From Cymbomonas tetramitiformis (lineage: Eukaryota; Chlorophyta; Pyramimonadophyceae; Pyramimonadales; Pyramimonadaceae): DNA of 64,000 bases. The notes under the pieces are model-generated. The model saw only the letters and a program-made list of their open reading frames with translations. It searched no databases and had not been told where the DNA came from. The stretch is taken from positions 20,645 to 84,644 of the forward strand of contig LGRX02034735.1 of NCBI GenBank assembly GCA_001247695.2, read 5' to 3'. Position numbers and translations under genes: made by a program. Below are positions 27,301 through 48,267 of this stretch, piece by piece. Positions within the stretch are counted from its first letter, which is position 1, and every line of letters begins with the position of its first letter.

Positions 27301-29608
27301 GGCCGCCCTAAAGTTCGCCGCCGCTTCCTGTGCAAGTCTCCGCGCGTGCTTGGCTCAGCTGTTGGTTTCCGCTCAGTGGAGTTCGGGCCGCCGCCACGAG
27401 TCAGTATGCACAGGGCATCCGTTCCCCAGCAGCTCGTTCCGAATCCGTTCCTCAGAAGCTTGTTGCGAATCCGGCAACAGGTGGAGGCTGAGGCTTCCCC
27501 AGACGTTCCCGAAGGCCCTCACTTACTGGCCTAGCCGGCAGGAAGTCCTGCTTTTGCCCCAATAAGGCTCAACTAAAGACCTTCAGCCTGTCTGCCTCGC
27601 AGATCGAATACCCCGAGATCGAGGAGGGCACCACCCCCCGACATCGCTTCATGTCCTCCATCGAGCAGAAAATTGAGCCCTGGGATAAGAAGTACCTGTA
27701 CCTGCTCTTCGCCGCGGAGCCTTACGAGGTCATCTCATTCAAGGTGGCTGCCCCACGGGAGTCTACGATCCTCTGCCCTGCACGAGTTGCCACTGGCGCG
27801 TGTCAAGGGAATCCATTGTTGCTACCCGAGACGGCCTTGCGTTTTTGGCCGCTCGAAAGTGGTGCATGTCCGCCCTCTTGTTCCAGGAGATCAAGCAGGG
27901 CGCCCTGGTGGCTGCTCCAGACCTGCAGCACGTGCATAGAGAGAGCGACTCACTCACGTGTAGACCCGCTGTACCCTCCTCTGCGATCCCCTGGGCAAAG
28001 ATCCTTTTCTGTCCGATTTCGGCACATCTCTGAGTCCTGCGCTCTTCAGTGCATCCAGCTTGTGGGGCGTCTGCACCCTCCCGCCGTGGCCTAGGACACG
28101 CCGTGCTTGAGGGCCTGCGGGGCGTCTGCACCCTCCCGCCGTGGCCTAGCACACGCCGTGCTTGAGGGCCTGTGGCGCCCGGTGGGCAGGTTCCCAATGT
28201 GGAGGTTGACAAGACCGGAAACAAGTTTTTTAGCTACTGGGAGCCGGACAAGAAGACGTACACTCTGCAGGTGTGCCCCTGCTTGTGTGCTGTGCTGTGC
28301 GCCAGGGTTGTAAGGCGGGTCTCGCAGAGAGCACCGAACCTCGGGCTGCCCGTCCCCGGAAGCTTGGATGCGCAGAACGCAATGCACCGGTCCTGATGAC
28401 ACAGAGAGTTGACTTAGGGCTGGTTCTGGTGACACAGAGAGTAGAGTTAGGGCTGGTTCTGGTGACACGGAGAGTTGACTTAGGGCTGGTTCTGGTGACA
28501 CAGAGAGTTGACTTAGGGCTGGTTCTGGTGACACGGAGAGGTGACTTAGGGCTGGTTCTGGTGACAAAGAGAGTTGACCTCAGGCCAGTTGTGGTGTTAA
28601 AGAAGGTTGACCTAGGGCTGGTTTTAGTTTCCCCAAAACTAGACTTAGGCATGCGCTTCCTTCTTTTAAGTGTTGTGCCACCTGGGCTGTGTGGCATCAG
28701 CGCATTGTCAGCAGGCCTTTCAGTGCACCCTCCTGGCTTTCATACCCGCAGGGCAAGTGCTCACAGATGTGCAGCAGCTCGCTTCTCCTTCATTGTTGCC
28801 CTGTATCTGAGTGGCTCCTGGGTGGTCTCCCTGTGCCTTGCAGCTGTACTTCAAGGGCGGCCGAGGTTCGGGTGGGATGGGTCCATCTGCGCCTTCTGGC
28901 GTGGCGCCACCACCTCTTCCAGGGGGGCCTCCCCCCGGCATGCCACCTCCGCCAGGGGGCTTTCCTCATAACATGCCCCCCCCGCCTCCCCTGGGTGGTG
29001 GTCGCCCAGGCGGCATGCCGCCTCCACCAGGGGGTCCCCCGCCACATGGCCCACCACCCGGCATGCCCCCTCCTCCTGGGATGATGGGCGGCCCTCCCCC
29101 AGGCATGCCTCCTCCTCCAGGTGCGACCACCTTACTCTTCCAGGCCGCCGTCGCTTGAGAGCGTAAACACGCCACAGCGACATCATACACCCTGCAAAAT
29201 CACCCCTGCATGGCATTGCAATCTTGGCTCCAGGGTATATGGAGGGAAAGTCGGATACTTGGGCACTTTTGGGGGACTCTTTGGATTTTGAAATTGTGTC
29301 CTGCATATGTCTGTATCTCCCGTTGCATGTGTCCACGTCCGATGGGCACTAAAGTGGCATCTGCGCTTGGCTTTGTGAGTGATGTGCTTGATTATGGTAG
29401 CATTTGCGCTTGGCTCGGTGAGTGATGTGCCTGATTGCGGGATCCTGCAGGAGGACCCCGAGGCATGCCTCCTCCTCCCATGGGACTGCCACCACCGCCC
29501 CGTGGAATGCCACCCCCACCACAAGGAATGCCTCCTCCCCCCATGGGAATGCCCCCTCCGCCACATGGAATGCCTCCTCCCATGGGAATGCCTCCTCCAC
29601 CGCGGTAG
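24322..29608 (+). CDS. SF3A2: Splicing factor 3A subunit 2 (SF3a66/Prp11 homologue), 8 exons, 355 aa
   Basis: Component of the SF3a complex of the U2 snRNP, needed for branch-site recognition in the nucleus. Exons: 24322-24387, 24491-24588, 24777-24840, 26404-26586, 27603-27743, 28190-28270, 28844-29120, 29451-29608. All introns are GT-AG and the sum is 1,068 nt including the TAG stop. Domain order: short N terminus, conserved helix (IDRRERLRRLALETIDLAKD), U1-type C2H2 finger (C-x2-C ... H-x5-H split between exons 3 and 4), the GRPGY segment, the conserved core (YPEIEEGTTPRHRFMSSIEQ, LLFAAEPYE), then a Pro/Gly/Met-rich tail from exon 7 (repeats such as GGMPPPPG). The length is shorter than animal orthologues, whose tail is longer. 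Introns 3, 4 and 6 carry minisatellites. The intron 4 array is built from copies of the exon 4 donor site. Confidence 0.96.
26074..26293. repeat. 44-bp tandem repeat in SF3A2 intron 3, five copies
   Basis: Exact or nearly exact units begin at 26074, 26118, 26162, 26206 and 26250. Each contains the near-palindrome TTGAGAAGCTTTCAA. Confidence 0.95.
26568..27245. repeat. 35-bp minisatellite made of the exon 4 splice donor, about 19 copies
   Basis: The unit reads CTCCCTGCTCTTCCAG then GTGCCGCCCGGCCTCCGCG. The first copy is the genuine end of SF3A2 exon 4 (encoding SLLFQ) plus the first 19 intronic bases. The array therefore repeats exon end and donor, with small deletions in the middle copies. 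All frames are open on both strands because of composition. Confidence 0.95.
28391..28640. repeat. 33-bp tandem repeat in SF3A2 intron 6
   Basis: About seven units starting near 28408, 28441, 28474, 28507, 28540, 28573 and 28606 share TTAGGGCTGGTTCTGGTGAC, the last two diverged. A ~54-bp duplication (GGGCGTCTGCACCCTCCCGC...) lies earlier, at about 28064-28172, in intron 5. Confidence 0.9.
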
Positions 29609-31381: not shown

Positions 31382-31700
31382 AAATGGTATCAGTGTGCTA
31401 CGCACCACCACCACCGCTTCCGCCGAAATTTTCTGCTTTCGACTTGTGACTTTTCCGGCGACTTTATACCGTGACTTCAGCTTCAATGTTATTTGAGATC
31501 TGCCAGTGTGTGTTACGCTTACCCGGGGCCTCCCCTGACGCGACTTCAGTTACGGCATTTATCAGCTCGCTGGCTTGTGACACCCACATAAATTATCGTT
31601 TATTTGCTTGCAAAAGCGAATTTCTTCTTCGACGCGTTGTGTAATTGTAGTTCATACTGGATCCTAGAAATCGGGCGCTTTTAGGGCCTAAAAGCGCCCA

Positions 31701-31918
31701 TGTCGCAAACGCGTGTGCATGATGGTACGAATATTCTCGGAACCGGGCAATCTTAACACTCGCGGATGATCATAAGTTCGTCATTAACATTCACTGGTGT
31801 CGGTAACTGTCCAAGCAATCTCAACACAGCACAAGATCGTAGAGCTACAAAATTTTTGAAATTCTGATATTCTGAGATCGAACACTAAGCTCTTTCATGC
31901 AAGCCCAGATTTCCAACA
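31701..31918 (-). repeat. Terminal module A, outer copy (A2), 218 bp
   Basis: Identical to 32443-32660 apart from one base that I noticed (GGGC versus GAGC near 31746). It forms the 3' end of the element and abuts the CCCA target duplication. Confidence 0.93.
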
Positions 31919-32440
31919 GAAAAAGTATAAAAACAGCAGTAAAATATATTCATCAAAATCGGTATAATAACCACAAAGTACGAATTATTGTACAAAAGCT
32001 GTGAGCAGAACTGTCTTAGCACTCTAGCACTGGCACGCGAACAGCCACCTAGCACTTGCGAAGGCAAAACAATAATGAGTCCACTACTCTGACCTACGGT
32101 CTGAGCTTACTTATATCTCAATGCTCTGTCACATTTCCCAAAACTGTAACGGGTTCTAGCCCTTAAATCTTCATCTGACCAATGGAAAGTCATCATTCCA
32201 TGCCAGCTCTAACAATGTTACCGTTCACCACATTCTGACTGACACGTCAGTGGCAGAGGAGTCACTGTCATCTTCATCTTATCATTCCCTGGTCACCCGA
32301 TAATGACCATATCTTCTCTGGCAGGTCTGCACCTCTCGGGCAGTCATCTTAGCGAAGCCTGTCACACTGTCATCTCTGTCACGCGTGTCACCAGCTGGAC
32401 AAACCCGGCGCGGTACCATGAGAAGCCGGCGTTTGTTACA
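31919..32440 (-). repeat. Terminal module B, 3' copy (B2), 522 bp
   Basis: Same length as 47742-48263, with two differences noticed (CTTGCG/CTTACG and GTTCACC/GTTTACC). It is flanked on both sides by module A, with two extra bases GC at 32441-32442 between B2 and A1. Confidence 0.95.
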
Positions 32441-32442
32441 GC

Positions 32443-32660
32443 TGTCGCAAACGCGTGTGCATGATGGTACGAATATTCTCGGAACCGAGCAATCTTAACA
32501 CTCGCGGATGATCATAAGTTCGTCATTAACATTCACTGGTGTCGGTAACTGTCCAAGCAATCTCAACACAGCACAAGATCGTAGAGCTACAAAATTTTTG
32601 AAATTCTGATATTCTGAGATCGAACACTAAGCTCTTTCATGCAAGCCCAGATTTCCAACA
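32443..32660 (-). repeat. Terminal module A, inner copy (A1), 218 bp
   Basis: It starts on the element strand with TGTTGG, directly after a purine-rich tract (GATGGGGGA) that looks like a plus-strand primer. It ends GCGACA. Together with GC and B2 it forms the junction ACA-GC-TGT, in which the two outer ends of the element are joined head to tail. Confidence 0.93.
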
Positions 32661-32697
32661 TCCCCCATCTGTAGCTGCTGCGTGCAGTAGCACAGAC

Positions 32698-34068
32698 TCA
32701 AATATGGGCTTGTTCAGCATACTGGGTCGTATCACCATCTGCCATGAACTTGCCCAAACTGAAAGTGAACATACCAATGCCTTCACCTTCTCCACCCTGT
32801 AACATCCTGGCTCTGACCAGCGGATTCTTGAATACCAAGACCCACATACACCTGCGGCCGATAGGTCCATGTTCCAAATGCCCAATCACATGCAAACGTC
32901 CAGTCTGACTCAATCGTCTGAAGTACGCGGCTCTGCTCTCGGTCATGTCTGTCAAGTAGTAAGATGGAACGTGGACACATGCCACCACACGACTGGCCAT
33001 CACTGCCAATGGAAACGCGATATCCAGCGCTGCAAACCAAGGCGAAGTCACCACTGCGTCACAGACACCATACTTCTCCTTCCATATGCGATAGTTACCT
33101 GGCTGAAGTGCGTCACGCGCCTCAGACCAACCCAACTGAGAGTTCCAGTCATTATTCATAAATCTCAACTGCGGCCATTGCTCCACCATCACCTCACTGA
33201 TGACCCCAGTACCTGCCCATGGGTCCCACACGCCATCGATGGACTTCCAGTCCACCTCTGTCGCCAAGCGCCTCACCTCGGAGGGCACTGTGATGACCAG
33301 CTCAAGCCCCCACTGCAGTGCGCTAGCTTCTCGCACCTGAGCCTTGGTCATATGTCTCAATTCTCCTCGTTTTTCAACTTCTTCTTCAGCCAAAGCAGGC
33401 ACAAGAGGTGCATCCCTCAGCTGCCTTGCCATTGCCTTCTGTTCCCGGTATTTCTTGCTCAGCACCGTGCGATGTCCCTCATTCCAGTGCCCTGGCATGA
33501 AGATCTGCACGGCCTCAGAGAGCTTGTCCTGTCTGCCCCAATCAATCTGATCTGGCATGTGGAGAAACATGTCCTTCTCATCCAACAGCATATCCCTGGA
33601 CGAGATGGCATGCCAAGGCTGCGACTTGCCTCCCTTCACCACGCGACGGGGACCCACGTCTGCTGGAAGCAGGCGCATGTCCGAGGACAGCTTCTCGTTC
33701 AGCTGTTGTTCCTTCATTCCCAATCTGTCCTCCAGGACCCAAGAGCTCTTGGTTTCCTGGGCTTGCACCTCAGCATTGGCGGCTTGCATCCTTGTGCCTG
33801 AGCACCTAGGACATAGCCACTCGCCCTCTGGTACTTCATTCAATGCTGGGGTAAGACACCATAAATGGTACCCCTTGTTGCACGCGTCGCACAACAACAT
33901 TTCTGCTTCTCCATCAGTCTTCCTGCACACTTCACATGCAAGGTGTCTGCTGGGCACGGCTGCACTGCAGTCATACTGGTCCTTCACCTGCAGGTGACAT
34001 GGCGCGATGCTCTGCACAGTGCTCTTCTCTCTTAACTTGGTGGCGTCCTCAAGCACCACGACACCATG
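32698..34068 (-). CDS. PHD finger plus amino-methyltransferase domain (3' part of pol, downstream of UGA)
   Basis: Open frame in phase with the integrase and separated from it only by TGA at 34071-34069. No ATG precedes the conserved part, so it is probably made by readthrough or is cut off by a nonsense mutation. Numbering from the GTG at 34059: residues 42-86 form a C4HC3 PHD finger (CEVC...CDAC...H..C...CPRC), a chromatin reader fold. Residues 277-287 (DPWAGTGVIS) resemble the SAM-binding motif of class I methyltransferases, and 339-342 (SPWF) sit where N6-adenine/N4-cytosine enzymes carry D/N/S-P-P-Y/F/W. W in the third position is unusual and activity is uncertain. The purine tract and A1 follow directly. 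Confidence 0.82.
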   Translation of the reverse strand, partial: HGVVVLEDATKLREKSTVQSIAPCHLQVKDQYDCSAAVPSRHLACEVCRKTDGEAEMLLCDACNKGYHLWCLTPALNEVPEGEWLCPRCSGTRMQAANAEVQAQETKSSWVLEDRLGMKEQQLNEKLSSDMRLLPADVGPRRVVKGGKSQPWHAISSRDMLLDEKDMFLHMPDQIDWGRQDKLSEAVQIFMPGHWNEGHRTVLSKKYREQKAMARQLRDAPLVPALAEEEVEKRGELRHMTKAQVREASALQWGLELVITVPSEVRRLATEVDWKSIDGVWDPWAGTGVISEVMVEQWPQLRFMNNDWNSQLGWSEARDALQPGNYRIWKEKYGVCDAVVTSPWFAALDIAFPLAVMASRVVACVHVPSYYLTDMTESRAAYFRRLSQTGRLHVIGHLEHGPIGRRCMWVLVFKNPLVRARMLQGGEGEGIGMFTFSLGKFMADGDTTQYAEQAHI

Positions 34069-35523
34069 TCACTGTATCTTGACCAGCTTCAGGATGGCGG
34101 ACTTGGTCGCGACTTCCATGCCGCTGCGAGGCTTCTGTCTGATGTAGACGAAATCGCCCACTTTGAACTGGTGTGGCCTAGGCTCATAGCCCCCACCCCT
34201 TCTTCCTTCATAATGTAACGTATCGCGATGCTGCGCTACCTCCAGGCTGCAACCAGCGTGCACCATCAGTCGCCTCACCACCTGTGCTCTCTGGAGGAGG
34301 TCCTTGACTCTGGCATCCTTCTCATCTTCGACCCCAGCACCGAAATCTATGCTGGGCGCCTGCTTCAAATCTGGCGGCACCACTGCCTCTTGGGCAAACA
34401 ACAGGGTAAACGGCGCCACTCCCGTGGACTCCTGGCGTGCTGCATTGTAGCTCAGCACCAGCGGCCAGAGCTGCTCATCCCACTCATAATCGAGGCCCTT
34501 CTCCAAGGCAAGCTTCTTGAAGCAAAACTTCATTGTGCGCACCACTCGCTCAGTAAGCCCATTGCCTTCTGGTGAGTCTGGTGAGGTGACTCGTCGGTCG
34601 ATCAGGCAGTCTCTGCATAACTGCTTGAACTCGCCCTCGAACTCTTTGCCTCCATCCACCAAGCACTCTGCTGGCGCACCAAACACAGCCAGGACATGAC
34701 TGCGAAATGCCGCTACGATGGTCCTCGCTTCCTTGTCGGGAATGGGTACACAGACTATGAATCTGGTGTAGTGCTCGGTCATGATGAGCACCCTGTTGTT
34801 GCCAGCCTTGGTCTGTCTCCTCGAAGGCCATGCCAAGTCCAGCGACCAACGATACATGAACGACGCGATCTCGAGGGGGGATAAACACGCATCCTCTCTT
34901 GCATAATGGGTTTTCACGCGCTGACAGGTCTCACACTGAGTGACCACAGCCTCCACGTCCTTCTTCAAGTTGGCCCACCAATGGCGCTGCCACAGAAGAT
35001 GCTGCGTACGTCTTATGCCCCAATGGCCAGTTCTGGAATGGCATTCCTTGACCAATGCAAGACGGTCAGCAGGCTTGGGTATCCTCACCTCCTTGCCCGA
35101 CAGCGTGATCATGTAGATCTCGTCCGTAGCCTCATCCCATCGATGTCGTGCTGCGCGTCTCCTCACACGACGGACTTCATCCTCTGGCAATCTCACGCGG
35201 CCATTGGACTTTAGCCATCTGAGGCACCACTTGTCGTCATGCACATCTCGATGTTTGTCGCGGTCAGCCTGTTGTTCTGCAACGCTGGCCATCAAGTCCG
35301 CAAATCTGGTGGTACACGCCAACCTGGGGAGTCTCATCTCCGTATCTTTGCCAGGCGGGCTCCAAGCAGGCACGTCAGCGCGCACTGCTGGAGTTGCGCC
35401 CTCCTTCACGAAGTGGCTCTCGTGCCTCTGGCGATACTGCATAATGGCGTAGAGCTGCCACTCCTTCTTCTTCTTCTTCTTGGTTCCAGCCTTCTGTCGC
35501 TGAGCCCCAATTCCTTCTGCACC
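34069..35523 (-). CDS. Pol segment: retroviral-type integrase
   Basis: Encodes the HHCC zinc domain (His135, His140, Cys170, Cys173 counted from the ATG at 35442). The rve catalytic core follows with Asp202 (SLDLAW), Asp263 (LVDGGKEF) and Glu298 (GLTERV), giving the D,D-34/35-E pattern, then a C-terminal barrel segment (KVGDFVYIRQ). The frame is the continuation of the RT-methyltransferase ORF once the MITE at 35532-35824 and one target duplication (301 bp) are removed; between them lies a Lys-rich linker. The frame ends in TGA in the middle of what should be the last barrel strand (VKIQ, stop, HGVVVLED), which argues that the stop is secondary or recoded. Confidence 0.93.
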   Translation of the reverse strand, partial: GAEGIGAQRQKAGTKKKKKKEWQLYAIMQYRQRHESHFVKEGATPAVRADVPAWSPPGKDTEMRLPRLACTTRFADLMASVAEQQADRDKHRDVHDDKWCLRWLKSNGRVRLPEDEVRRVRRRAARHRWDEATDEIYMITLSGKEVRIPKPADRLALVKECHSRTGHWGIRRTQHLLWQRHWWANLKKDVEAVVTQCETCQRVKTHYAREDACLSPLEIASFMYRWSLDLAWPSRRQTKAGNNRVLIMTEHYTRFIVCVPIPDKEARTIVAAFRSHVLAVFGAPAECLVDGGKEFEGEFKQLCRDCLIDRRVTSPDSPEGNGLTERVVRTMKFCFKKLALEKGLDYEWDEQLWPLVLSYNAARQESTGVAPFTLLFAQEAVVPPDLKQAPSIDFGAGVEDEKDARVKDLLQRAQVVRRLMVHAGCSLEVAQHRDTLHYEGRRGGGYEPRPHQFKVGDFVYIRQKPRSGMEVATKSAILKLVKIQ

Positions 35524-35531
35524 TTTCTGCC

Positions 35532-35824
35532 CAGGGAAGATATCTTACCCCAATTGGCCGGCCCCGGGCCGAACTGAGTCGCCAAAATGAGGCCCAGGCC
35601 GAAGAGGGGCCGAAAGAGAAATTGCTTTGGGGCCGAACCAATTTGGCGCAAACTTCAAAAATTTTGATGAATTTTTTTGCGATTTTGGCATTTTCCCATA
35701 CTTAAGATTAAAATTTTCGCGCCTGCGGCGGGCATTTTGTAGTTTGGACTGGGCGGGCCGAAGGCGGCCCGAAAGAAAATTTGACTTTGGGGCCGTACCA
35801 GCTCAACGGAAGATATCTTCCCTG
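35532..35824. mobile_element. hAT-like MITE (CAGGGAAGATATCTT), copy 2, 293 bp, inside pol
   Basis: Same TIRs as 8765-9044. A perfect 8-bp target duplication TTTCTGCC lies at 35524-35531 and 35825-35832. It differs from copy 1 by a 13-bp insertion (near GCGCCTGCGGCGG). Because the element is nested, it is younger than this copy of the retroelement. Confidence 0.95.
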
Positions 35825-38800
35825 TTTCTGCCCTTGTGAGCACATTGCCTGCAGCTTCTCTTCCCAGTCACGGTGACTCATGGGCTTCGCCACCTGCTGA
35901 GTATATGCGTTCGAATTCTCAACCCATTCCGCCAGCAAAGCTTGCCTCTGCTGAAGGTCCGACCTCGCGTGGTCTGCCCAGTTGTTGTCTACAGCGATAG
36001 GCTGTCCTGGGGAATTCTCCGCCTCTGGGGACTCCTCGCTGTGAGGGAGCCCCTTCCTGCTCGCTTCTGCGACTGACATCAGCAGTTCCATTGCCCTGCG
36101 ATCCATGGCCAGGCCCAGAATGCTCGCCAATTCTACGTCGTTCAGGCCATCAGCCATGCGTAGCTCACTTGCGCTGTAGCCCATGGCTCGCGCCTTCTCG
36201 TCGAGGTTCACTTCTCGAGATTCTTCCTCGGCGTCTTCATCGTCCTGGTTGCGCACCACGGTGCACATCCTTGCTCTTCTAAATGCTCTCGACCCTTGCG
36301 TCGCCATGATGGTGGGAAGAGCCCTCAGCGGTTCTCCCACCACGTTCACCACGTAGTGAGGCGCGCGGTCTGTTCTTATCACTGGTCTGGGCTGCCAGCC
36401 CTTGCACAGGATTGACGATACGACTCGTCCTTCTGGTCTCGCCACCTTGCTCATCACGGAGCGAAACTGGTGGATCTGGAACAAGTTGCTCCAATACGCT
36501 CGCAATCGATGTGCGTAAGCGCCTGCTTGTGCTGCATCAAAGGACACTGGTCGGCCAATGACGCTGGCAATGTACGGGAACACCTCGTCCCTGATCTTGG
36601 TCCCGGGTCTGTGCGACAATGGGGAAACGTTCTCCAGGATGTAGCCTGGGGGCCTCTGCTGCTGTAGCTGCTGCAGCGTGGATAGAAGCCGAACCACTTC
36701 ATAAAATAATTTGCTGTGCCTGCCATCCAGGCCTGTGAGTGTTCCAGCAGGGGAGAGATCCTGGCACGGGAACCCACATACCATGACCCACTGGCGTCCT
36801 TGAAGGGCTCCTGCTCGTATGAAGTCGGCACTGGTGGTGTCGTGCAGATCTTGGGGTAGAGCCCCAAATTCTATTGCACTGGGAGAGATGAGATCAGAAT
36901 ATCGTCTCAGCAACGCCGTGCACCTGGCCCTGGCAACTGTCCGACTGCTCGGTGATATGTCCTGATACAGGTAGCGATCCACCTTCATCCCACTGCGGAG
37001 CAACATCTCTAGGCCAGCACAGAGGCCTCCACATGGCTCATAGCACACCACACCTTCCTCCCGAGCTTGCGAGAAGAACTGCCTGCCCAGCACCCTCGTG
37101 TCCACCTTCTCAGGCTTCAAGATGCATCCGCCTTCAAAGTACTCATTGCTGTATACAGCGGGGCTTCCCTCGCCATGTGTGCCTCGCGTAGGCCTCACCA
37201 AGCTCAGCGCCTTCCAAGCCGCTCTGGCTAGCCTCCCAGAGTCGGTCACCAGCTCGGGTAAGTCAGTATCGAACATGTCCCCGTGATTGCACTCCAATTC
37301 CTCCTGGTGGTGCAAGTCGAATAAACGATGCACTGGTCCCGTGCCCAGCTGCTCCATGGCAGCCATCTTGCAGTAGTTGGCAACCTGCACCTCTGGCGTG
37401 GCCTCTTCCCCTGGGGACACCTCCCCAGCCAGCATAAAGCACAAGTGGTCGCAGAAGTCCTTCGTGTGAACTTCCCCCACGCCTGCGTGAAGCGCAGTCA
37501 CTTTCTCCCTCTCATGCCTTGCCCCAGTCTCGTCTGTGGTAGATGGTAGCGGATAGCGAGACGGCACGTCGGCGTTGCTGTTCTTGGCTCCCGGGCGATA
37601 CTGCACCGTGAAGTCGAACTCCTGCAAACTAATTGCCCAGCGTAGGTGTTGCCCCTGGAGATCAGCCTTCTCCATCAGGGTGGTGAGCGGTGAGTGGTCA
37701 GTCACCAGCGTAAAGTGAACACCATGTAAGTACTGCCTCAGCGTGCGCACTGCCCACACCACTGCAAGCATCTCCCCTTTGAAGCTGGCGTACTGCCTCT
37801 CCGTCTTACTCAGGGATCGGCTGATTGCCATGCAGATGTACTCCTTCCCATCATCGTCCTTCTGGCCCAGCACTGCGCCAATGCCATAGGTGCTCCAATC
37901 AGTGTACAATATGAGGGGTCTGTCATAATCGATAGGCCTCAGACATCTCCCAGAGCAGAGGGCGTCCTTCAGGTCTTGAAGCGCTTGATCTTGCTCCTTC
38001 CCCCAAGCTCCCTTGATGTCAGTGACCTCCTTCTTGAGCAGGTCGTTGAGAGGGCGGGCCATCTCAGAGTAGTTTGGCCCCCCTGGCTCACCCACCAGGC
38101 CCTTGTAGTAATTCATCATGCCCAAGATGGAGCGGAGCCCAGTCTTGTCCTGGGGGCTTGGAAGCTCCTGGATGGCCTTGCACTTTGCTTCTTGCGCGCC
38201 AATGGAGTTGTGACCAATGCGGTAGCCCAGAAAGTCCACCGTGGCTGCACCAAAGGTACTCTTGCCTGCGTGCAGTCTGATGCCAGCGTCCCCCAAGGTG
38301 CGCAACACGTCCTCAACGTCCTTCAGATGCTGCTCAGGCGTGGAATCCGTGTAGACCACTACGTCATCGACGTATGCCACTGTACAATGCTGCAAGTGAC
38401 GTAACTCGTAGTCCATGATTCTCACAAACGCAGAAGTGGCTCCAGCTGCCCCAAAAGGCATCGAGGTGTACTGGTACCGCTGATTCTTCCACCAGAACGC
38501 CGTCTTGCTTCTGTCCTCTTCCGTAGCCATGGGGATCTGGTGGAAGGCTTTGGTGGCATCCAGCGTGGTCTTGAACTTGGCCTTCGCAACCTTCTGGTAG
38601 AGCTCCTCTGGTCGATGTGGCAGCGTGTTGTCCTTGAGGGAGTGCCGGTTGACGCCCCTGAGATCCACGCAGAATCTCGTCTGGGTCCACAGGCCAGTCT
38701 CATGATCCTTCTTGCCAGCCACGACGACGTTGCTCGCATGTCTGCAATGCTTGGCTGCAGGCTCTATGAAGCCATACTCCAACAGTTCCTTGCAGTGAAT

Positions 38801-40081
38801 ATCGATGATTTCCTGCTCGCCCGGGCTGTACTTCCTGGGTCTCTGGTAGGCGGCCTTGGATTCGTCTATGAAAGGGATGGAGAACGTGTTGTGCTCCGCC
38901 TTGCCTTTGTAGCCTGTCAGGTCGTGAGGGCTGTTGGCAAAAGTGGTCTTGCACCTGCGGAGAACGTTTCGCATTTCCTCCCAGTGCTCCTCCTTGAAGT
39001 CAGGATGTCCTCCAAACGTGGCATTGAGCTCAGTGTCGAGCCACGCTGCCTCGTCCTTGGTCACTGTCGTGTCACCTAGAGGTTGAAGCTCGTCCAGCAC
39101 GGTGTACGGCAAGACCTCATCCTGCTCCGCGACGTTGGCTTCCCAGCCCGGCTCCCATTGCCTCGAGGATTGATGAGCCTCCCAAGAAGTGCAGGGGGAC
39201 GCACCCCAGGCACTGCGCGTGGGTGACATGACATCGTACGCAGGCACACTCTCGGTCAGCTTGCCAGCGACCCACAAGATTCCGCACAAAAGCAGAAAAA
39301 ATCGCAAAATTCTGTTGAGCCGCAGTGCTTCTGCCGGCGAGTTCGAAGCGAAGAAGCACGCCATTACTCTCCACCCCCCCTGCGCCAAGCGAGTACTCCC
39401 ACCAGCGGCGGTGGAGACCACTAGCGTAAGGACAAGCGCCATGTAGGCGGCCTGCGCGACGCGATGAAGTTGGAGATTACGCCGAAGCTGCGCCCAGCGC
39501 GCCGCAAAGCGAGGCTTGTCCAACCTGGCCGGCAAAGCGGGCAGGCGCACGCGGCCCAGTAGGAAAACTTGGGACCAGCGCAGGGACGGAACAGTCCACC
39601 CCCGGGCACGTCGAACGTCACATGCGTCCAGAGGGATGTCCACGACATAAGAAGCTTGGTGCGCCACATCCTCAGTATAAATACCGGCGCAAACCCAAAG
39701 CCAGGCGAGGACCACGAGGAGGAGGGCTGTGGCACACTGTGACCAGCATGCCAAGGAAATGGCCACCCCCCGGAGGGGTACCACCATCCAACCTTCTGCA
39801 CGAACGCGGTGCACGCCAGCATAGATGCCCATGGTACGCACGATGAGGGACCCAACGTACCAGACACAAGCGAGGGCCCACAAGACCCAAATGTCATAAC
39901 ATGCACGACAGGGATAACGTCGAGCAAACGACCACCACACCGGCAGCTGGTCCAAAAGCGAGGCCACGCAGCGCCTCCACCAAATCGATGAAAAGGGCAC
40001 CATGACAGGTGCCACGCCGTTGCCTCCCACATCGCCCAAATGGCGACCATGGGCACGGGACCTCGTCCCAGCCACCACCAA
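35825..40081 (-). CDS. Pol: membrane segments, reverse transcriptase, RNase H and C5 cytosine methyltransferase
   Basis: Open from 40105; the first codon usually called (40081) is TTG, so initiation or frameshifting is unresolved. Domains by residue from 40081: hydrophobic helices near 63-82, 105-134, 210-226 and 259-273; RT about 430-640 with CVDLRGVN, MPFGAAGA and catalytic YVDD (570-573); RNase H about 722-800 (YTDWSTYG, FKGEM, VTDHS); C5-MTase about 1010-1340 with EPCGGLCAG (motif I), GFPCQDLS (motif IV nucleophile Cys1106), ENV (motif VI, 1150-1152), RLRAYW (motif VIII-like), RALPTI (motif IX) and a motif X-like helix. All catalytic residues of RT and MTase appear present. The frame continues into integrase but for the MITE at 35532. 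Confidence 0.93.
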
Positions 40082-40181
40082 ACCACTGCACTGCCTGCAA
40101 GCGAGCTACACGCTCGCAGGACACCCGGCCTCAAGTGGACTGCCTGTGCCGGCAGCCCACGGCCACAGCGTTGGTTGCGCA

Positions 40182-43100
40182 TCAGGGCCGCCCGCCTGCT
40201 GCGTCCGGGGAGCCCTGATGAAAACGCGCTTGTTGTCGCTGCGCCTCACGTCGTTCTTCTGTGTGGCGCTCAAACGCCACTGTCTCATCGGTGCACACCG
40301 AATGCGCCGGAGAAGGAGGGCGCCTCGAGGTGCGGTTGGCCGGTATCCTGGATGTCCTCGGTGTGTGGACGACATGGGTGGAAGTCCCGTGGCGGCCAGC
40401 GGAAGGAGCAGACGAGCGCGCAGCACTGCTCGCGCCCTGTCGACGTCCAGCCGTACTGCCAGAAGGCTGGCGCTGATGACGCGCAGGGGGGTCGCGGACC
40501 TCGTCCACATTCCTTGTCCAAATTGCGTCCATGTGCTCGGGCCTTTCGGCTACTCGAGCCTGAAGGGCGGGCGGTGTAGCTGCTGGGAGACGACGTGCCT
40601 CTAAGGCTCCCAGCGCTGGCAGCAACCATGGCGCGGCCACTTCCTTGGTCCCCCACTGCAAGTGCGTGAACTTCCGGTCGTCTCGCATGAGGTAATCGTT
40701 CGTGAACTCAGCGTGCCAAGACAAACACCGTTGCTGCTCCATGAAGATGTAATACACTGGCGTGGCATTCGGGTGCGCCATGCAGCGCAGCACGTGTGCT
40801 GACTCCAGCGCCACGTAGGAGCACAGCGACCCCTCGATGTTCCTTGCATGGCCTCCCTCGAGCCTGTGCCCCGAATCAAAGTGCGACAGATCGGCATAGG
40901 CCGACATGATCGCCTCCAGCAGGTTGGAGGACGTCGTCTGTCCCCCAAGAGGGAGGCGCCAGCCCTGGTGTCCGCAATGGATGGTCTTGTCATGCTTCCT
41001 GGCGACCTTGCCGGTGATACCCGGACGCTTCCGAAGCCGGAGACCTCGTTCCTTGTTGCACACGCCAAGCTCATGCACGACGCGTTGGCCTCGACAGCGG
41101 TCTACGAACGTCACGCCAAACTTCACCATGAAGACGGTGAGATCGCGGCGATCCTTCAAGGCCCTCACCTCCTCCACGGACAGAAATCTGCCCACCGAGC
41201 TGTCGGACGAGGTGGCTCTCTGTACGGCATCCCAATCTGACCCCGATGGAGATGGAGGCGCCCTCGCGGGGGACCGAGACAGATGATGCGCCCGTGGTGG
41301 ACTCGGAGGTGTAGAAGGCGGGCCTCGCGGGGAACGTGATCGGGCATCACGTGGGACACGGATTGAGCTCGCCCATGAGCCAACGTTGGTCATAGCAGGC
41401 GATGCAGGCGGCGACCTTCCTCGAGAAGGGCTAGCGGCAGGATCCGATGGTCCAGCTGCTGCGGCACAAACGAGTTGAGGTGACAACTCACGAGAATTGT
41501 TCGCTGGCCCAATGTCGCTGGATGGTGGCGATGGCGTTGCGCGGAATGCGATATCCGACATGCGCGGTGGTGACCATGGTATAATGGGCCCATGAGGCGG
41601 CCCAGCGGCGGCACGAGACGGCCCAGCGGCGGCCTGAGACGGCCCAGCGGCGGCCTGAGATGGTCCCGCCCCTGCGGCAGGAGCAGGTGGCTGCGTCGGG
41701 GCTCGCTTCGTGAGCCTGGTGTTCACCATGTTGTTGGGTGGCGGTGGCCTGCGCTCTGCGTCCGCGTCAAGCGCATCGTATCCCTGCTGCTTGGTGTTGA
41801 CTGACTTGAGCATCTTCCTCATCTCCCCCAGGCGTACGTACTCCTGGGCGGCTGCATTCTCGGAGAACACCCTGCCAGGCCCCCCAAGACCATCCCCCAC
41901 TGGGTAGTACTTGGCGTTGGAATCCAGAGAGACGAGCTCCAGAGGTGGTCCCTCGTGGCCGTGTCGAACATATCTCTGGAGTATGCCATCCGAGAGGGAC
42001 TCCACGTCCACTGGGCAGAGATACCTGAGCAACTGGTATGCCCAGACACCAGTGCTCTCGTACCAGTGAGGGAGCTGGAGCTCCTGCAGCAACTCCTCGC
42101 CATTGTACACGAGCGCATGATCCAACGTGCAGCCCATCAAGTCGAGGTACTGCGTGGCTGCGCGCGGTTGGACACAGAGGACGCGCTCCTTCAGATCCCA
42201 CATGAGGGTCCCAGTGACCTCACCACTGGGGTATTTGAACAACGCCTGGAGCTTGTCCTGCAGTTTCTGGATCGGGTTGAGGTCGAGCCTCGAAATGCCT
42301 CTCTCCCTAGGCATGACGACGTCCTGCTTGCTGGCAGAGGACGGTATGTGCGTCATGTAGTTGCCATCGAGTATCCAGCGGTCCTTTTCCTCGTCGTGCT
42401 GCAGCTTCTGATCCACGTACAGCCAGTTAGGGGACATCAGCTGGTCTACTGTCACCCACTTCTGCTCGCGACACCGGGTGAGCTCCACGCAGACATGATC
42501 TTGGGAAGGTTTGGTCGGCATGTCCTGGGCTGGGCACTGGAGGATGCGGCAGAGACGCGCGATGTGGTTCCGGTCCAAATACAGTCTCTGATCCGCCCAG
42601 TTGTAGTCGAGAGGGGCGTTGAGAGACGGACGACCCCCGGCAACCTGGTCCTCAGTGAACCATCTTGCGTGTCCACCCTCCCAAGGGCTCGGCTCTTCGT
42701 AAAACTGTGCGAGGATGCGCTCCGATGCTGCCTGTACGGCGGGCGCCAGTGGCGCCAGGGCACTCCTCCGGCCGCCTTCGAGGGGACACGTCCGATGGCG
42801 ATTCCTTGCCTCGAGCTCCGCTCGCGTGATGGCTCGAGGTCGTGGGCGTTCAGCAAGATGTCTTGGCGAAGGCGCTGGTGACCCCACTGGTGACTCGTCA
42901 CCGTCGTCGATGTGCTCAAGGCGAAACCCAGAAGCAGCGAACCTCTCCTCCCTTGTGCTCAGAGGTGGGTGCCTTAGCCACTCGCACTCCATTCCCTGTC
43001 CAAAGATTTCCGACTTCAGACACACCGCCAGGTCCACCCGCCTTGGCAGGTCGGGACGCCTGGGTGGTGTCATGTCTACCAACGGAAGCACCACCTGAGC

Positions 43101-43535
43101 ATCCATGCCCAGAATCGTCGGTGCATGTGACACGGCCACGCCGCTCCCAAGCTTGATATCGATCATCAAGGAGTTCTTCAGCGGCCCGGTACCTATCAGC
43201 AGATCCCAAGAGTTCTCGGGCTCGAAGGTCACGAAGGCGTACAGCCGGTGAAGCGTCATGTGCGGTGTGCCCGCAGCCAGTATGACGTCCACGTAGCAGT
43301 AATGCGTGAACTTCGTGGGGCTGTTGTCACACCTGGTGACCTTGGCGCCGGTGCTGGCCTCGTACACCGTGAGGCCCAGCCGCCTCACGACCGCGATGGC
43401 GATGATGTTGCAGTTGGCGCCGGTGTCCATGAGGATTGCCCGATACAGCATAAGCTCACCACCAGACGACACCAACGCCAGACCCTCATACAGGGTGGCA
43501 TTCTGCAACTTGCAGATGGGCTGGACCTGAGTCAT
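40182..43535 (-). CDS. Retropepsin-bearing ORF with a long uncharacterised region
   Basis: The first in-frame ATG is at 43535, inside the 3' end of the gag-like ORF (50-bp overlap, different frame, consistent with +1 frameshifting or re-initiation). Residues 30-130 carry a retroviral aspartic protease: active-site ILMDTGANCN and the second motif WDLLIG. The following ~950 residues are not recognised. They include an Ala/Gly/Pro-rich linker with tandem AAAGPSQ units near residue 640, a Ser/Arg/Pro-rich region, and a C-terminal block rich in conserved-looking His and Cys (for example HCGHQGWRL). Its stop at 40182 lies 76 bp before the pol frame opens, so direct frameshift fusion to pol is not possible as sequenced. 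Confidence 0.8.
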   Translation of the reverse strand: MTQVQPICKLQNATLYEGLALVSSGGELMLYRAILMDTGANCNIIAIAVVRRLGLTVYEASTGAKVTRCDNSPTKFTHYCYVDVILAAGTPHMTLHRLYAFVTFEPENSWDLLIGTGPLKNSLMIDIKLGSGVAVSHAPTILGMDAQVVLPLVDMTPPRRPDLPRRVDLAVCLKSEIFGQGMECEWLRHPPLSTREERFAASGFRLEHIDDGDESPVGSPAPSPRHLAERPRPRAITRAELEARNRHRTCPLEGGRRSALAPLAPAVQAASERILAQFYEEPSPWEGGHARWFTEDQVAGGRPSLNAPLDYNWADQRLYLDRNHIARLCRILQCPAQDMPTKPSQDHVCVELTRCREQKWVTVDQLMSPNWLYVDQKLQHDEEKDRWILDGNYMTHIPSSASKQDVVMPRERGISRLDLNPIQKLQDKLQALFKYPSGEVTGTLMWDLKERVLCVQPRAATQYLDLMGCTLDHALVYNGEELLQELQLPHWYESTGVWAYQLLRYLCPVDVESLSDGILQRYVRHGHEGPPLELVSLDSNAKYYPVGDGLGGPGRVFSENAAAQEYVRLGEMRKMLKSVNTKQQGYDALDADAERRPPPPNNMVNTRLTKRAPTQPPAPAAGAGPSQAAAGPSQAAAGPSRAAAGPPHGPIIPWSPPRMSDIAFRATPSPPSSDIGPANNSRELSPQLVCAAAAGPSDPAASPSRGRSPPASPAMTNVGSWASSIRVPRDARSRSPRGPPSTPPSPPRAHHLSRSPARAPPSPSGSDWDAVQRATSSDSSVGRFLSVEEVRALKDRRDLTVFMVKFGVTFVDRCRGQRVVHELGVCNKERGLRLRKRPGITGKVARKHDKTIHCGHQGWRLPLGGQTTSSNLLEAIMSAYADLSHFDSGHRLEGGHARNIEGSLCSYVALESAHVLRCMAHPNATPVYYIFMEQQRCLSWHAEFTNDYLMRDDRKFTHLQWGTKEVAAPWLLPALGALEARRLPAATPPALQARVAERPEHMDAIWTRNVDEVRDPPARHQRQPSGSTAGRRQGASSAARSSAPSAGRHGTSTHVVHTPRTSRIPANRTSRRPPSPAHSVCTDETVAFERHTEERREAQRQQARFHQGSPDAAGGRP

Positions 43536-45978
43536 CAGCAACGAACGCCTGCTCGTCGGTCAGGTGCTGCTTCATCTTCGCCCTCAGCGCGTCGTAGGCG
43601 CGGGTCTTGATGGTACCAGCTCGAACATGTCCATGATCACTGAAGTCAACCACCCCCAGGTCGTTCACACAGGCAGCGGCTGCACACCGGGCGGTGGCAC
43701 TGTCGACCACGCCATCGGGCATCTCGTCCAGCGGCACCTCCTCGTCCATCTGGCGTTCTGTGCTATCTGCTCCCTCTCTTACCCCCTGCACCACTGTGGC
43801 GTGCGCGTCCTCAAGCTCATGCTCGTTGACCTCGGTGGGCTGCTCTGTCGCATTCTCCGGCTCGTTGCCCATGAGCTCCTCCAGCGCCAGGAGGTTCTCA
43901 ATGTCCTTTGGGAGGTCGATGGCGTGCTGGGATATCAAGATTGCCGCAATCTGCGAGCAAGTCCGCACGGAGCTGTGGAGGTTGGACGCCAGCAGGTGAA
44001 TCTTCCTGCTGAGGACGTTGGGAGGAACGGCTCTGGGCACCTGAGCAGCCTTGTCGAACTCCTCCGGCGTCTTGACCTTGAAGCTCTGCATCTTCTGAGT
44101 GCTGCCCAGGGCGACTGCGGCCCTGGCATGGAGATCTGGTGCGTGGCTGACACCAACATCGTCACTGTCTTCCAGCCCCTCACCAGCGAGGCAATCCCGC
44201 TCATTCTCCTCATACTCCGCCTGCTGGTTGAAGTTGGAGTTGTACTCAGTCTCGTCATCGCCGTCCTCTGACTGGGCCTGCGCCTCAGTGCCCTTGCCCC
44301 CCTTCGGAGGTGTCCCTGTCTGAAGGCCTGTCAACTCTGCAGCGAGCTTCTCCTTGACCTCAGCGCTGGCTGCCACCTGCTGCTGCTGCTGCTGCTGCGG
44401 TTGCTTCTGCTTGGCCTCTGGCAGCTTGAGCCACTCCTTCGTAGTGATCCCCATCTTGTTGTTCTCGAAGCGGTGAGCGATGTTGTAAGCACGCATCTGG
44501 GCATTCTTGACCTCGTTCGGCCACTTCGAGTTCTGCCTGTCCTTGTGGAAGTTCGGAGGCACTCGGGCATCACGGCATCCCGTGTAGCAACGCTCTGGAG
44601 GATGGGGCAAGCGTGTGAAGCACCAGTCACACTGGAACTCCTTCGAAGCGTCAGGTGGTGGCACTCTGCCGTAGGTGGGCTTCTGGCGCTCCGCATTGTT
44701 CACCTCCCTCGGAGGCTTCTTGGCGTCATCACCACCATGCTGTGCTGACTCCCTCTTCTTGGGGTCCCTGCGTCTGTCTCCAGTCTTGGGGGCAGAGCCG
44801 GAGCGCCTCATAGCGGATACCAGTGCAGCCAGGTCGAGCCCCAGTTGCCTGGCCTCGTAGCAAGAGTACACGCAGGTAAGCCTGCGAACCAGCTCCTGCT
44901 GCAATGTCAGAGCCCAAGATTCCGCATCGTTCTTCAGCTTGTCCTGCACCTCCACGATGACCTCCAGGTCCTCCCATGTGACCTTGTTGGGGGCAGGATG
45001 ACTGACTCGTAACTGCTCGGACACGCGATCCCGGTACTCCTTGATGCGCAGACCCTTGATGCACTCCTCGATGTCCTGCCTGACAATGGGGTCCTCCACC
45101 ATCTTGCCAGCGTTGAGCGCTGCCTCCCTGCGGCGACAGCTCTTCACGTAGGCGAGGCCGTCCTGCTCGGTGGTCTGTGACTTGGCGACCAACAGGTCCT
45201 CTTTCTCCTTGGTGCCCTTCATCAGGAACTTGGCCTCGAGCTCTGCAATGAAAGCCCTCAAGGCCCAACAATAGTGAGAATCTTCCGTGCCATCTGTCCC
45301 CGTGAGACCCTTAGTGGAGGTTCCCTCGCTTTCCCACTCATCAGACTGTTCGCCATCAGCATCGCCTTCCTCGAACACCTTGCAGACTGCCCATGTCGCT
45401 CCTGGCGCCAGCTCATGGAAGGGAGGTTGTGCGCAGCGCACTGAGCCCTGAAAAGCGTCCCTCGTAGTGAGATCCCTCAAGACATGACACGCATGAGAGG
45501 CCATGATGCCATTCTTCAGATATGCGGCGCACCACCAGTCATAGGCGACTGAGGTAGAATGATCGTCCCCTGCTAGGAACGAGGGCAGGCTGTCCCACAA
45601 CGATCTGTAATCTGGTTTGGAGTCAATGAAAGCCTTCTTCGCCTGCTGACTGAGCGCGTGAAAAGCCGCTGACCTCATGTGCCTGCGTTTCCTAGCCTCG
45701 TGAACCCGCTGTACTTTTGCCACCATATCAACGAAACGCCTGATAAAGAGCGCTCTGTCTTCGTTCTTGCCACCAGTGTAGCAGAGCTTGACATCATCCT
45801 TGTCAAGCGTGTGACTCTCCCTGTCATACTGATCCATCTCGTCTACGTCGTCAAATGCAAAGAGGAACTGATTGGCTGCAGGCTCTGAGGCTGCTGCTGT
45901 CCCTGCGAGCGCTGCTGCTGCTGCTGCTGATATCGGTGTGGAGGGGCTGGATTCTGGACGCGACCCCTCTGTGCTCAT
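43486..45978 (-). CDS. Gag-like ORF, 830 residues
   Basis: The ATG at 45978 is the first after an upstream in-frame stop near 46109; the open frame extends to 46020 through non-ATG codons. Features: a Ser/Ala-rich N terminus, a long helical capsid-like region (residues ~60-400), a basic RRRDPKKR region, a Cys cluster C-x2-C-x9-C-x3-C (CDWC...C...C) near residue 480, a poly-Gln run near 560 and an acidic C-terminal third. Position after the leader and before the protease ORF is the basis for calling it Gag. No CCHC knuckle of standard spacing is present. Confidence 0.75.
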   Translation of the reverse strand: MSTEGSRPESSPSTPISAAAAAALAGTAAASEPAANQFLFAFDDVDEMDQYDRESHTLDKDDVKLCYTGGKNEDRALFIRRFVDMVAKVQRVHEARKRRHMRSAAFHALSQQAKKAFIDSKPDYRSLWDSLPSFLAGDDHSTSVAYDWWCAAYLKNGIMASHACHVLRDLTTRDAFQGSVRCAQPPFHELAPGATWAVCKVFEEGDADGEQSDEWESEGTSTKGLTGTDGTEDSHYCWALRAFIAELEAKFLMKGTKEKEDLLVAKSQTTEQDGLAYVKSCRRREAALNAGKMVEDPIVRQDIEECIKGLRIKEYRDRVSEQLRVSHPAPNKVTWEDLEVIVEVQDKLKNDAESWALTLQQELVRRLTCVYSCYEARQLGLDLAALVSAMRRSGSAPKTGDRRRDPKKRESAQHGGDDAKKPPREVNNAERQKPTYGRVPPPDASKEFQCDWCFTRLPHPPERCYTGCRDARVPPNFHKDRQNSKWPNEVKNAQMRAYNIAHRFENNKMGITTKEWLKLPEAKQKQPQQQQQQQVAASAEVKEKLAAELTGLQTGTPPKGGKGTEAQAQSEDGDDETEYNSNFNQQAEYEENERDCLAGEGLEDSDDVGVSHAPDLHARAAVALGSTQKMQSFKVKTPEEFDKAAQVPRAVPPNVLSRKIHLLASNLHSSVRTCSQIAAILISQHAIDLPKDIENLLALEELMGNEPENATEQPTEVNEHELEDAHATVVQGVREGADSTERQMDEEVPLDEMPDGVVDSATARCAAAACVNDLGVVDFSDHGHVRAGTIKTRAYDALRAKMKQHLTDEQAFVADDSGPAHLQVAECHPV

Positions 45979-46195
45979 ATAGCCAGTGTCAAGCTCCTGA
46001 CTGTTCCTCTCTCGTGCCAACCGTCGTGCCTCACGATCTCTGGACTGGGCAGTGGCAGCGCTCGGTTCCGCCTCTACACCCTCCGTGGTAAAGTACTGCG
46101 TTAATGCTCAGCAAGTGGGACTAAGGAAACGTCCCCTCCCTTAGCGCAAAGCTCGTTCACCAGCAGACTGCAGGCCTGATTCAGGCTGGTTTAGG

Positions 46196-47624
46196 CCAGT
46201 GCACTGAGGGCTCCTGGATTCACCCCGCGCTGAACAAGCAGAAGTACGAAATGCGTGCAGCCAGCGCAAGCCCAGAGGTCCGGCAATACGTGTCAGCGCT
46301 CTGAATCAACAGCAGATGTAGGACGGAAGCTTAATTCAGGTTGGTTTAGGCCAGTGCACTGGGTGCCCCTGGATTAGCACCGTTTTGAACAAGCGGGAGA
46401 ACGAAACGCGTGCAACCAGCGAAAGCCCAAAGGTCCAGCACTATGTCTCAACGCTCTGAATCCACAGCAGATGCAGAATATTCGTGCAAGAAGGGCTTAA
46501 AGCTGAGCCAGTGTGCTGAGCACCCCTGGATTAGCTAAGCCAACGTTCATCAAGAGCACAGAGACTATGAGGACAACTCCTCTTCCACCAAGGCACCAGG
46601 AATAGCACAAATACGCAGTGGTGTGAGCTAAGCCAGTGTGCTGAGCACCCCTGGATTCACAGCACCACTGCTAATTAAGGGTACGGGAGTTGGCATGGAA
46701 GTTCACCCCCAGTCCAGTAAGCAAGAACAAAGTCGCCACACAGAGTTGGGAGCTAAGCCAGTGTGCTGAGCACCCCTGGATTCGCAGCACCACTGCTGAT
46801 TCAGAAGGTCACTGGTGATATGAGGGCCTCACCGGCTGACAAATATTGTAGAAGAGATAAAAGAATTCTCACACACATTATGATAAAGAACCAGAGAGTC
46901 CCAAAGTGGTCAACAGCACTCCAGGCTGGGCCAGTACTCAATTAACTCTGAATCCACCAGATAGCTATATCAAACCATTGAATAGTGTATATAAAGACCA
47001 CTCACTTGTCGCCTTCAGAGCTGATGTCGCTGCCAGTCCTCTGGCAAGCTCTTTCCTACTTCAGGTTTAGGCCAGTACACCAGGGGTGTCCCTGGATTGA
47101 CCGTCAGACAGGGTGGAGCTGCCAAAGAAACCGTAAGGTGAAAGTCCACACATAGGGTAGAAACTCACTGCTGATCCGCTTTTAATTAGTAAGTCCAGGC
47201 AGATGCCGCCGCTAATCAGCTCCCAGGTCGCACACTTGCCTTTCAGTTAGGCCAGTACACCAGGGGTGTCCCTGGATTCACTTCATACAAGGTGGTCAAC
47301 TGGAGAGACCACTGGAGAATAGCTCATCAAGGTGTACATTCACTGCTGATCCACTCTGTCGCTGCCGCCGCCCAAGCTCATGCCGTGCTGATTAGCTTTC
47401 AACTGAAGAACACCTGTTCGCAGTTAGGCCAGTGCACCGTGGGTGCCCCTGGATTCACTGTAGAACAAAGTGCTGAGCATATCACAGGATAGGAGAAAGC
47501 CGCTCATCAACCAGTGAATTCAGTGCTGATCCGCTGCCGCCGCCGCTGGTGACCTTTTTCAGTACAAGTACCACCAAGTTCAGGGAAGAAGAAGGGTCCG
47601 CCAGTGCACTGTGGGTGCCCCTGG
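46196..47624 (-). repeat. Nine dispersed copies of a covarying 22-24-nt hairpin in the retroelement leader
   Basis: Copies at 46196-46217, 46351-46372, 46508-46529, 46633-46654, 46758-46779, 47072-47095, 47252-47275, 47429-47452 and 47601-47624. All begin CCAG and end CTGG, and eight of the nine are followed by GATT. The inner stem changes in a paired way: GTGCT/AGCAC, ACACC/GGTGT, GCACC/GGTGC, GCAC/GTGC; the first copy has one mismatch. Spacing is 125-180 bp, with one double interval. The intervening sequence is less conserved. The leader spans about 45979-47741 and carries no long ORF. Confidence 0.9.
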
Positions 47625-47741
47625 AGTCGCCTGACTTCCGAATCCGCTCTTACAAACTGCTGCTGACTTCTCGCCAAAGGGTCTTTACTTCTGAATTAAC
47701 ACTGAAATAAAAAGCCGCTCCGCGCAGGACATTATTGTTTT

Positions 47742-48263
47742 GAAAAAGTATAAAAACAGCAGTAAAATATATTCATCAAAATCGGTATAATAACCACAAA
47801 GTACGAATTATTGTACAAAAGCTGTGAGCAGAACTGTCTTAGCACTCTAGCACTGGCACGCGAACAGCCACCTAGCACTTACGAAGGCAAAACAATAATG
47901 AGTCCACTACTCTGACCTACGGTCTGAGCTTACTTATATCTCAATGCTCTGTCACATTTCCCAAAACTGTAACGGGTTCTAGCCCTTAAATCTTCATCTG
48001 ACCAATGGAAAGTCATCATTCCATGCCAGCTCTAACAATGTTACCGTTTACCACATTCTGACTGACACGTCAGTGGCAGAGGAGTCACTGTCATCTTCAT
48101 CTTATCATTCCCTGGTCACCCGATAATGACCATATCTTCTCTGGCAGGTCTGCACCTCTCGGGCAGTCATCTTAGCGAAGCCTGTCACACTGTCATCTCT
48201 GTCACGCGTGTCACCAGCTGGACAAACCCGGCGCGGTACCATGAGAAGCCGGCGTTTGTTACA
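47742..48263 (-). repeat. Terminal module B, 5' copy (B1), 522 bp
   Basis: It begins on the element strand with TGTAACAAACGCC next to the CCCA target duplication and ends ATACTTTTTC. The sequence after it (AAAACAATAATG) has no evident tRNA primer-binding site. Module A, present on both sides of B2, is absent here. Confidence 0.95.
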
Positions 48264-48267
48264 CCCA

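Follow-up and report, generated by a model that had tools for sequence, protein, structure and literature searches.

A Ty3/Gypsy-type retrotransposon of the prasinophyte alga Cymbomonas tetramitiformis with a DNMT3-type methyltransferase, a PHD finger and a putative second methyltransferase in its Pol region

Introduction

Retroelements that carry their own cytosine methyltransferase are known. The closest described system is KnitGypsy-Dnmt3 of Klebsormidium nitens, a Gypsy element with split repeats that captured a DNMT3; enzymes of such DNMT retrotransposons methylate CG de novo, and methylation of the complementary DNA (cDNA) has been proposed (de Mendoza et al. 2018, PMC5890265, in the parts of the article available). 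In this study we analysed a 64,000-nt stretch of the Cymbomonas tetramitiformis genome (contig C24612:20645-84644, hereafter the window), which holds a 16.6 kb element on the minus strand at 31701..48263. A preliminary description had proposed that its Pol region encodes two unlike methyltransferases and a PHD finger, a combination that it regarded as undescribed. We place at roughly 0.6 the probability that this is a Ty3/Gypsy-type retrotransposon whose Pol bears a DNMT3-type C5 methyltransferase and, behind the integrase, a PHD finger and an amino-type, most likely adenine-N6, methyltransferase (hereafter MT2).

Compared by description, KnitGypsy-Dnmt3 shares with this element the Gypsy domain set, a DNMT3 inside Pol and DIRS-style terminal repeats. 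It differs in its charophyte host, in that a PHD finger goes without mention in the main text of PMC5890265, and in that the available text describes no second methyltransferase for it; no protein under the name Klebsormidium was among the 66 matches listed. SymbioDIRS-Dnmt3 also has a DNMT3 in Pol and split repeats in the order A-B-A-B, but its host is a dinoflagellate and it uses a tyrosine recombinase instead of a DDE integrase (PMC5890265, same parts). DIRS elements with a Dam-like adenine methyltransferase are likewise retroelements with an adenine-type enzyme (PMC5890265, PMC6338049, in the sections available). They differ in having a tyrosine recombinase, and members of the MT2 family matched D12 and phrog_799 models, with the Dam family not among the Pfam matches listed at E up to 1 for 13 members. 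Gypsy lineages of Ectocarpus carry a histone reader at the Pol C-end behind the integrase, as here, but it is a chromodomain or Tudor domain and not a PHD finger, and the available part of that article reports no methyltransferase in them; a Sola1 DNA transposon with a ParB-methyltransferase protein is described there too (PMC12477816).

For Cymbomonas itself, the 2015 genome paper noted over-abundant scaffolds with homology to chromodomains, RNase H and cytosine methyltransferases, and the present architecture is not described in its available text (PMC5741210). No retroelement with both kinds of methyltransferase and a PHD finger was described in the literature searched, as far as the accessible text of its sources goes, subscription papers and preprints lying outside its scope. 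Capture of a C5 enzyme was already known, as the preliminary description had acknowledged; what is new, within the literature searched, is a DNMT3-bearing Gypsy Pol that also holds a PHD finger together with another methyltransferase, of amino type. A polyprotein that combines a histone reader with a pair of dissimilar methyltransferases, that is under selection and that has relatives in many data sets makes the question of why such enzymes are carried testable on young versus old copies. The element also joins DIRS-like repeats and integrase-type insertion, replication styles that are usually apart.

Domain content of the Pol region

Read in its own (minus-strand) orientation, the element runs a1, leader, gag-like open reading frame (ORF), protease-like ORF, reverse transcriptase (RT)-RNase H, C5 methyltransferase, integrase, PHD, MT2, b1, GC, a2, b2, where a and b are the terminal repeats. 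Domains named in the preliminary description were recovered by Pfam on the minus strand in three ORFs (35708-40105, 34069-35544 and 32698-34068), with matches to RVT_1 (5.6e-23), RT_RNaseH (6.7e-33), DNA_methylase (PF00145, 2.4e-9), Integrase_H2C2 (4.7e-17), rve (4.7e-8) and PHD (1.4e-12). The RT and RNase H (37556..38788) are nearest to those of Ty3 (structure 4ol8, 4.8e-66; Ty3 polyprotein, 1.4e-65), and the integrase (34069..35544), made up of H2C2 and a DDE core, is nearest to the Ty3 and foamy virus (PFV) integrases. As in Ty3/Gypsy long terminal repeat (LTR) retrotransposons, RT-RNase H precedes the DDE integrase.

The C5 domain (35906..37108) lies between them. Its best match in the PDB is DNMT3A; DNMT3A and DNMT3B come first, DRM2 follows, and bacterial enzymes rank behind these (profile 1.1e-11, vs 4.6e-5 for HhaI). 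Counting down, its GFPCQ motif begins at 36775 and its ENV motif at 36634; a DNMT3 domain within Pol with catalytic PC and ENV is a feature that it shares with the DNMT retrotransposons of de Mendoza et al. The PHD finger (33802..33936) resembles those of CHD4, WSTF, KDM5 and ATXR5 among PDB matches. Chromoviruses have a chromodomain behind the integrase, and here, by Pfam, the PHD finger holds that place. It is followed by MT2 (32701..33396), whose characteristic motifs are DPWAGTG (33205-33225) and TSPWF (33034-33048).

Relatives, conserved order and selection

Protein searches scored the best 7986 and 7995 candidates, and all counts of relatives are among the matches listed. Matches were assigned manually, according to the names and sources given for them, to a Cymbomonas set or to another set; entries of the latter are taken as environmental, and the short entries P0154, P0159, P0160, P0165 and P0166 were kept out of it. 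The ORF encoding PHD and MT2 gave 49 matches: 23 from C. tetramitiformis (up to 96% identity), 24 from EukProt, the window's own and one animal CHD3, which matches through its PHD.

The proposal that one Gypsy Pol unites a PHD finger with methyltransferase folds of two dissimilar kinds holds across distant relatives, with the fold of MT2 predicted from a model. MT2 is found at the C-end in 21 of 33 probably environmental polyproteins with a C5 domain, and nine of the other 12 stop before its position, so relatives keep the order in which PHD and MT2 follow the integrase; predicted proteins such as P0002, P0003 and others run from the integrase into PHD-MT2. Furthermore, distances for RT, integrase, C5 and MT2 correlate at 0.75 to 0.88 among the 14 polyproteins in which all four occur, a group without members of the Cymbomonas set (0/999 permutations as high), as expected if the domain set travelled together. 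Other arrangements exist: in the relative P0115 the C5 domain stands before RT, with PHD behind, and in P0074 and P0095 a G-patch motif lies between C5 and integrase (P0095 scores 23.6 against a Pfam cut-off of 22, and P0074 falls below it).

Within Cymbomonas, the ratio of nonsynonymous to synonymous substitution rates (dN/dS) was calculated from pooled pairwise comparisons of 12 ungapped full-length copies, the remaining eight of 20 loci being dropped for indels or partial alignment. It was 0.086 for MT2 (bootstrap 0.050-0.131) and 0.161 for PHD (0.052-0.442); for the linker it came to 0.149 (0.094-0.226), so that MT2 has the lowest value of the parts measured, with overlapping bootstrap intervals. 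Leaving out the three of the 12 copies that are broken by an internal stop gives 0.090 for MT2. Each motif residue counted is identical in 11 or 12 of the 12 copies. Judged by these ratios, MT2 is under purifying selection among the genomic copies.

A Tudor-like segment between PHD and MT2 was noticed in relatives P0071, P0076, P0081, P0084 and others, and looks missing in the Cymbomonas copies. This reading comes from one weak Pfam match (0.092, in P0081) and inspection by eye, and a further scan of nine proteins lent it no support.

Fold and proposed role of MT2

In Pfam and NCBIfam, searched to an E value of 1, the window's MT2 sequence had no family match, and in PHROGs it matched two families of unknown function only (0.15 and 0.31); sequence searches of MT2 profiles against the PDB gave nothing convincing. 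It was recognised via distant relatives and its predicted fold. A first AlphaFold2 (AF2) model, built from PHD-MT2 and 19 relatives of which many were chimeric gene models, reached a confidence score (pLDDT) of 39 and was not used. The model retained (pLDDT 79.8, predicted template modelling score 0.77) has the fold of class I methyltransferases that use S-adenosylmethionine (SAM), and motif I lies ahead of motif IV in it, so that the domain with SPWF, which might have been modelled as some other fold, is predicted to have that of a methyltransferase. Motif I also precedes motif IV in M.TaqI, HsdM and METTL5. The best solved structural matches are mostly adenine-N6 enzymes, these three among them (HsdM from type I restriction-modification). 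MT2 shares fold and motif order with the three; they differ from it in having NPPY/F where MT2 has SPWF, and identity in the structural alignments is 13-18%. METTL5 is the top match, in a tie with DNA enzymes that lie within 1 Z unit of it, and the family matches of distant MT2 members are to DNA enzymes (phrog_799 and PF02086, D12).

Several observations call for caution about the activity of the two enzymes. The canonical form of motif IV in amino-methyltransferases is [DNS]PP[YFW], and known enzymes have NPPY/F. MT2 lacks the second proline, and it is therefore filed as having an N6-adenine-type fold and not as a proven member. Among 54 MT2 segments of the other set, 22 have TSPWF, nine have TSPPF or ASPPF, two have a gap and the rest vary, including SQPLP, MRPLF, GAAPG and CCLPR, some of them beyond recognition. 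The alignment behind the MT2 model excluded the degenerate tails of relatives. One lineage of MT2 has, just ahead of motif I, a match to the second half of the muconolactone isomerase profile PF02426 (P0117 at 26.9 against a cut-off of 26.7; P0106 below it), which we tentatively take for a chance or local likeness of sequence. As for the C5 domain, ECQ replaces PCQ in 23 of 37 domains outside the Cymbomonas set, the cysteine being kept in 37/37, and the observed/expected CpG ratio is 0.74 in the element against 0.91 and 1.06 in the flanks, a figure from one copy with coding composition uncontrolled. Given the motif variation in both enzymes and the PF02426 match, activity may differ between lineages.

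Because motif IV reads SPWF and not SPPF, MT2 may be inactive or RNA-directed. The first of these alternatives, that MT2 no longer catalyses anything and its methyltransferase fold serves the integrase for binding SAM or for protein-protein contacts, is a real though minority possibility: SPWF stands for SPPF in the Cymbomonas set as well as in the 22 segments counted above, and several lineages have a degenerate motif I or IV. Against it, much divergence has left intact motif I, the acidic residue that follows strand 2, and the serine, proline and aromatic residue of motif IV; TSPPF is present in relatives, and MT2 has a low dN/dS (lowest measured, with overlapping intervals).

The second alternative is that MT2 methylates the element's own genomic RNA (as N6-methyladenosine, m6A), serving packaging, translation or the avoidance of host decay. 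This is rather unlikely, although the rRNA m6A enzyme METTL5 is the best structural match, within 1 Z unit of DNA enzymes, the leader holds nine covarying hairpins (see below), and a published Ty3/Gypsy element has a functional m6A RNA demethylase domain (PMC9289625, in the parts available). Against it, MT2 sits behind two domains whose targets are DNA and chromatin, the integrase and PHD, and the family matches of its distant members are to the DNA enzymes named above. Given the anatomy, we would give action on DNA an even chance, regard an inactive SAM-binding or structural module as less likely, and think action on RNA improbable.

On the reading preferred here, that MT2 is most likely an adenine-N6 methyltransferase, the element is probably built to mark DNA or RNA chemically during copying and insertion. 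The C5 domain, beside RT in Pol, would methylate new cDNA. Chromodomains of chromoviruses tether the integration complex to chromatin, and the PHD finger, in the same position, could tether the integration complex or integrase to histone H3 tails. MT2, covalently behind the PHD finger and thus held at the integration site, would methylate adenines, in the cDNA or in the DNA that flanks it, at or after insertion, and the new copy would enter chromatin already marked. The preliminary description had suggested that the element may mark its own copies or choose chromatin during integration; its observation of the domain set is confirmed, and its interpretation is supported as regards the methyltransferase folds and PHD finger in one Pol and, within the literature searched, the novelty of the combination, marking and chromatin choice being inference. 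A bolder and doubtful version is that of an ancient algal Gypsy lineage with a portable epigenetic kit, each copy choosing its chromatin and arriving with 5-methylcytosine (5mC) and N6-methyladenine (6mA) already written. Such a kit might comprise a DNMT3-type 5mC writer, a PHD reader (in relatives also the Tudor-like segment) and an adenine-N6 writer fused to the integrase, in a lineage with DIRS-like repeats but integrase-made ends.

MT2 was sought without success among viral contigs (none of 91 pattern matches could be confirmed), prokaryote genomes (none of seven) and phages. No donor is therefore named, and absence from these collections does not exclude one.

Terminal repeats and insertion

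The ends given in the preliminary description were confirmed by TG...CA termini and a CCCA target-site duplication (31697..31700 and 48264..48267), termini and a short duplication being as in Ty3/Gypsy. The repeats themselves are not ordinary LTRs. Repeat a (522 bp) is present at the 5' end of the element as a1 (47742..48263) and again as a2 (31919..32440), and repeat b (218 bp) as b1 (32443..32660) and, at the 3' end, as b2 (31701..31918), all on the minus strand, with the dinucleotide GC (32441..32442) between b1 and a2. The insertion is young, since a1 and a2 differ at 2/522 positions and b1 and b2 at 1/218. A polypurine-like tract, AGATGGGGGA (32661..32670, minus strand), which we suppose to serve as such, lies immediately ahead of b1. 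The sequence directly after a1 is AAAACAATAATG, without TGG at this position of a tRNA primer site. An imperfect inverted repeat (TGTAACAAACGC vs TGTCGCAAACGC) is common to the two outer ends, whereas there is no match between the beginning of b and the end of a.

This arrangement, a - interior - b-GC-a - b, lacks the identical full LTRs at both ends of Ty3/Gypsy elements, and because of it the element is named Ty3/Gypsy-type. It has the split direct repeats A-coding-B-A-B of DIRS/Ngaro elements, but Pfam found no tyrosine recombinase in the five ORFs, the DDE integrase taking its place. To our knowledge DIRS/Ngaro elements make no target-site duplication; here a 4-bp duplication is found in all five copies in which both ends were located (CCCA, ACGG, CGCT, AACA and AAGC). 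For these, 20 far-end stretches were requested, 17 existed and the end was located in four, to which the window was added. As the 4-bp duplications fit these ends in every case, the integrated form has integrase-type ends. It could represent a circle with two LTRs of conventional type (each b-GC-a, starting right after the purine tract) that was opened at GC within one of them.

That the b repeat outside a2 is instead a nested insertion or assembly artefact, and not a true end, is very improbable. Ordinary Gypsy elements do have the same LTR at both ends, and the 20 loci cut from the genome (851.7 Mb searched) came from a query containing b-a-b, so that differently built copies may be under-represented. 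However, 19/20 loci start exactly at TGTCGC with differing flanks (L016 is without that end), the b-GC-a joint is identical in 20/20, the duplications fit these ends in 5/5 copies, and KnitGypsy-Dnmt3 was published with the same repeat order (PMC5890265). At the 3' end of another copy (G000:C18438:8399-11587), three overlapping matches 744 bp apart represent extra tandem b-a units, such as would arise from concatemers or unequal exchange.

Lesions and remaining features

The preliminary description had a single Pol frame interrupted by a miniature inverted-repeat transposable element (MITE) and one UGA. Both interruptions were found, and the description needs correcting in that the gag-like and protease-like ORFs lie in frames other than that of Pol, besides the non-standard repeats. 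The MITE (293 bp, 35532..35824) has a terminal inverted repeat of 15 bp and an 8-bp target-site duplication, TTTCTGCC, from whose lengths we take it to be hAT-like; the Pol ORF, counted stop to stop (35708..40105, minus strand), ends inside it. The UGA (34069-34071) terminates the integrase ORF and separates it from PHD-MT2. Of 19 further loci in the genome, 17 carry a sense codon at its position; of the remaining two, L012 aligns only beyond the codon and L013 gave no alignment. The UGA and the hAT-like MITE are lesions of the window copy. The UGA might suggest that the PHD-MT2 frame is an unrelated host gene fragment next to the element, but this reading is already refuted, bar the slimmest chance, by its place inside the terminal repeats, by the sense codon in all 17 readable loci, and by relatives, in which proteins such as P0002 and P0003 are continuous from integrase to PHD-MT2 and MT2 recurs in the C5-polyproteins counted above. 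A second copy of the MITE, about 90% identical and with flanks agreeing at 7/8 bp, was seen at 8753-9044.

Upstream of Pol, and also on the minus strand, the gag-like ORF (43486..46107, 873 codons) is named by position, a Pfam scan having found no family at its cut-off. The next ORF (40182..43559) has an aspartic-protease-like DTGAN motif near 43430 and a weak Pfam match to Asp_protease_2 (E 0.099).

The leader (46197..47625, minus strand) contains nine copies of a hairpin, CCAGGGGCACCC-A-GTGCACTGG and variants, in which changes on both sides were seen at 3/8 pairs among six distinct rows (0/500 shuffles as high). It had no match in Rfam; the hairpins are possibly a packaging or translation signal.

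Outside the element, the window also contains long tandem arrays at 26568-27248, 28389-28623, 58330-59077 and 60419-60785, with periods of 35, 33, 75 and 75 bp, respectively.

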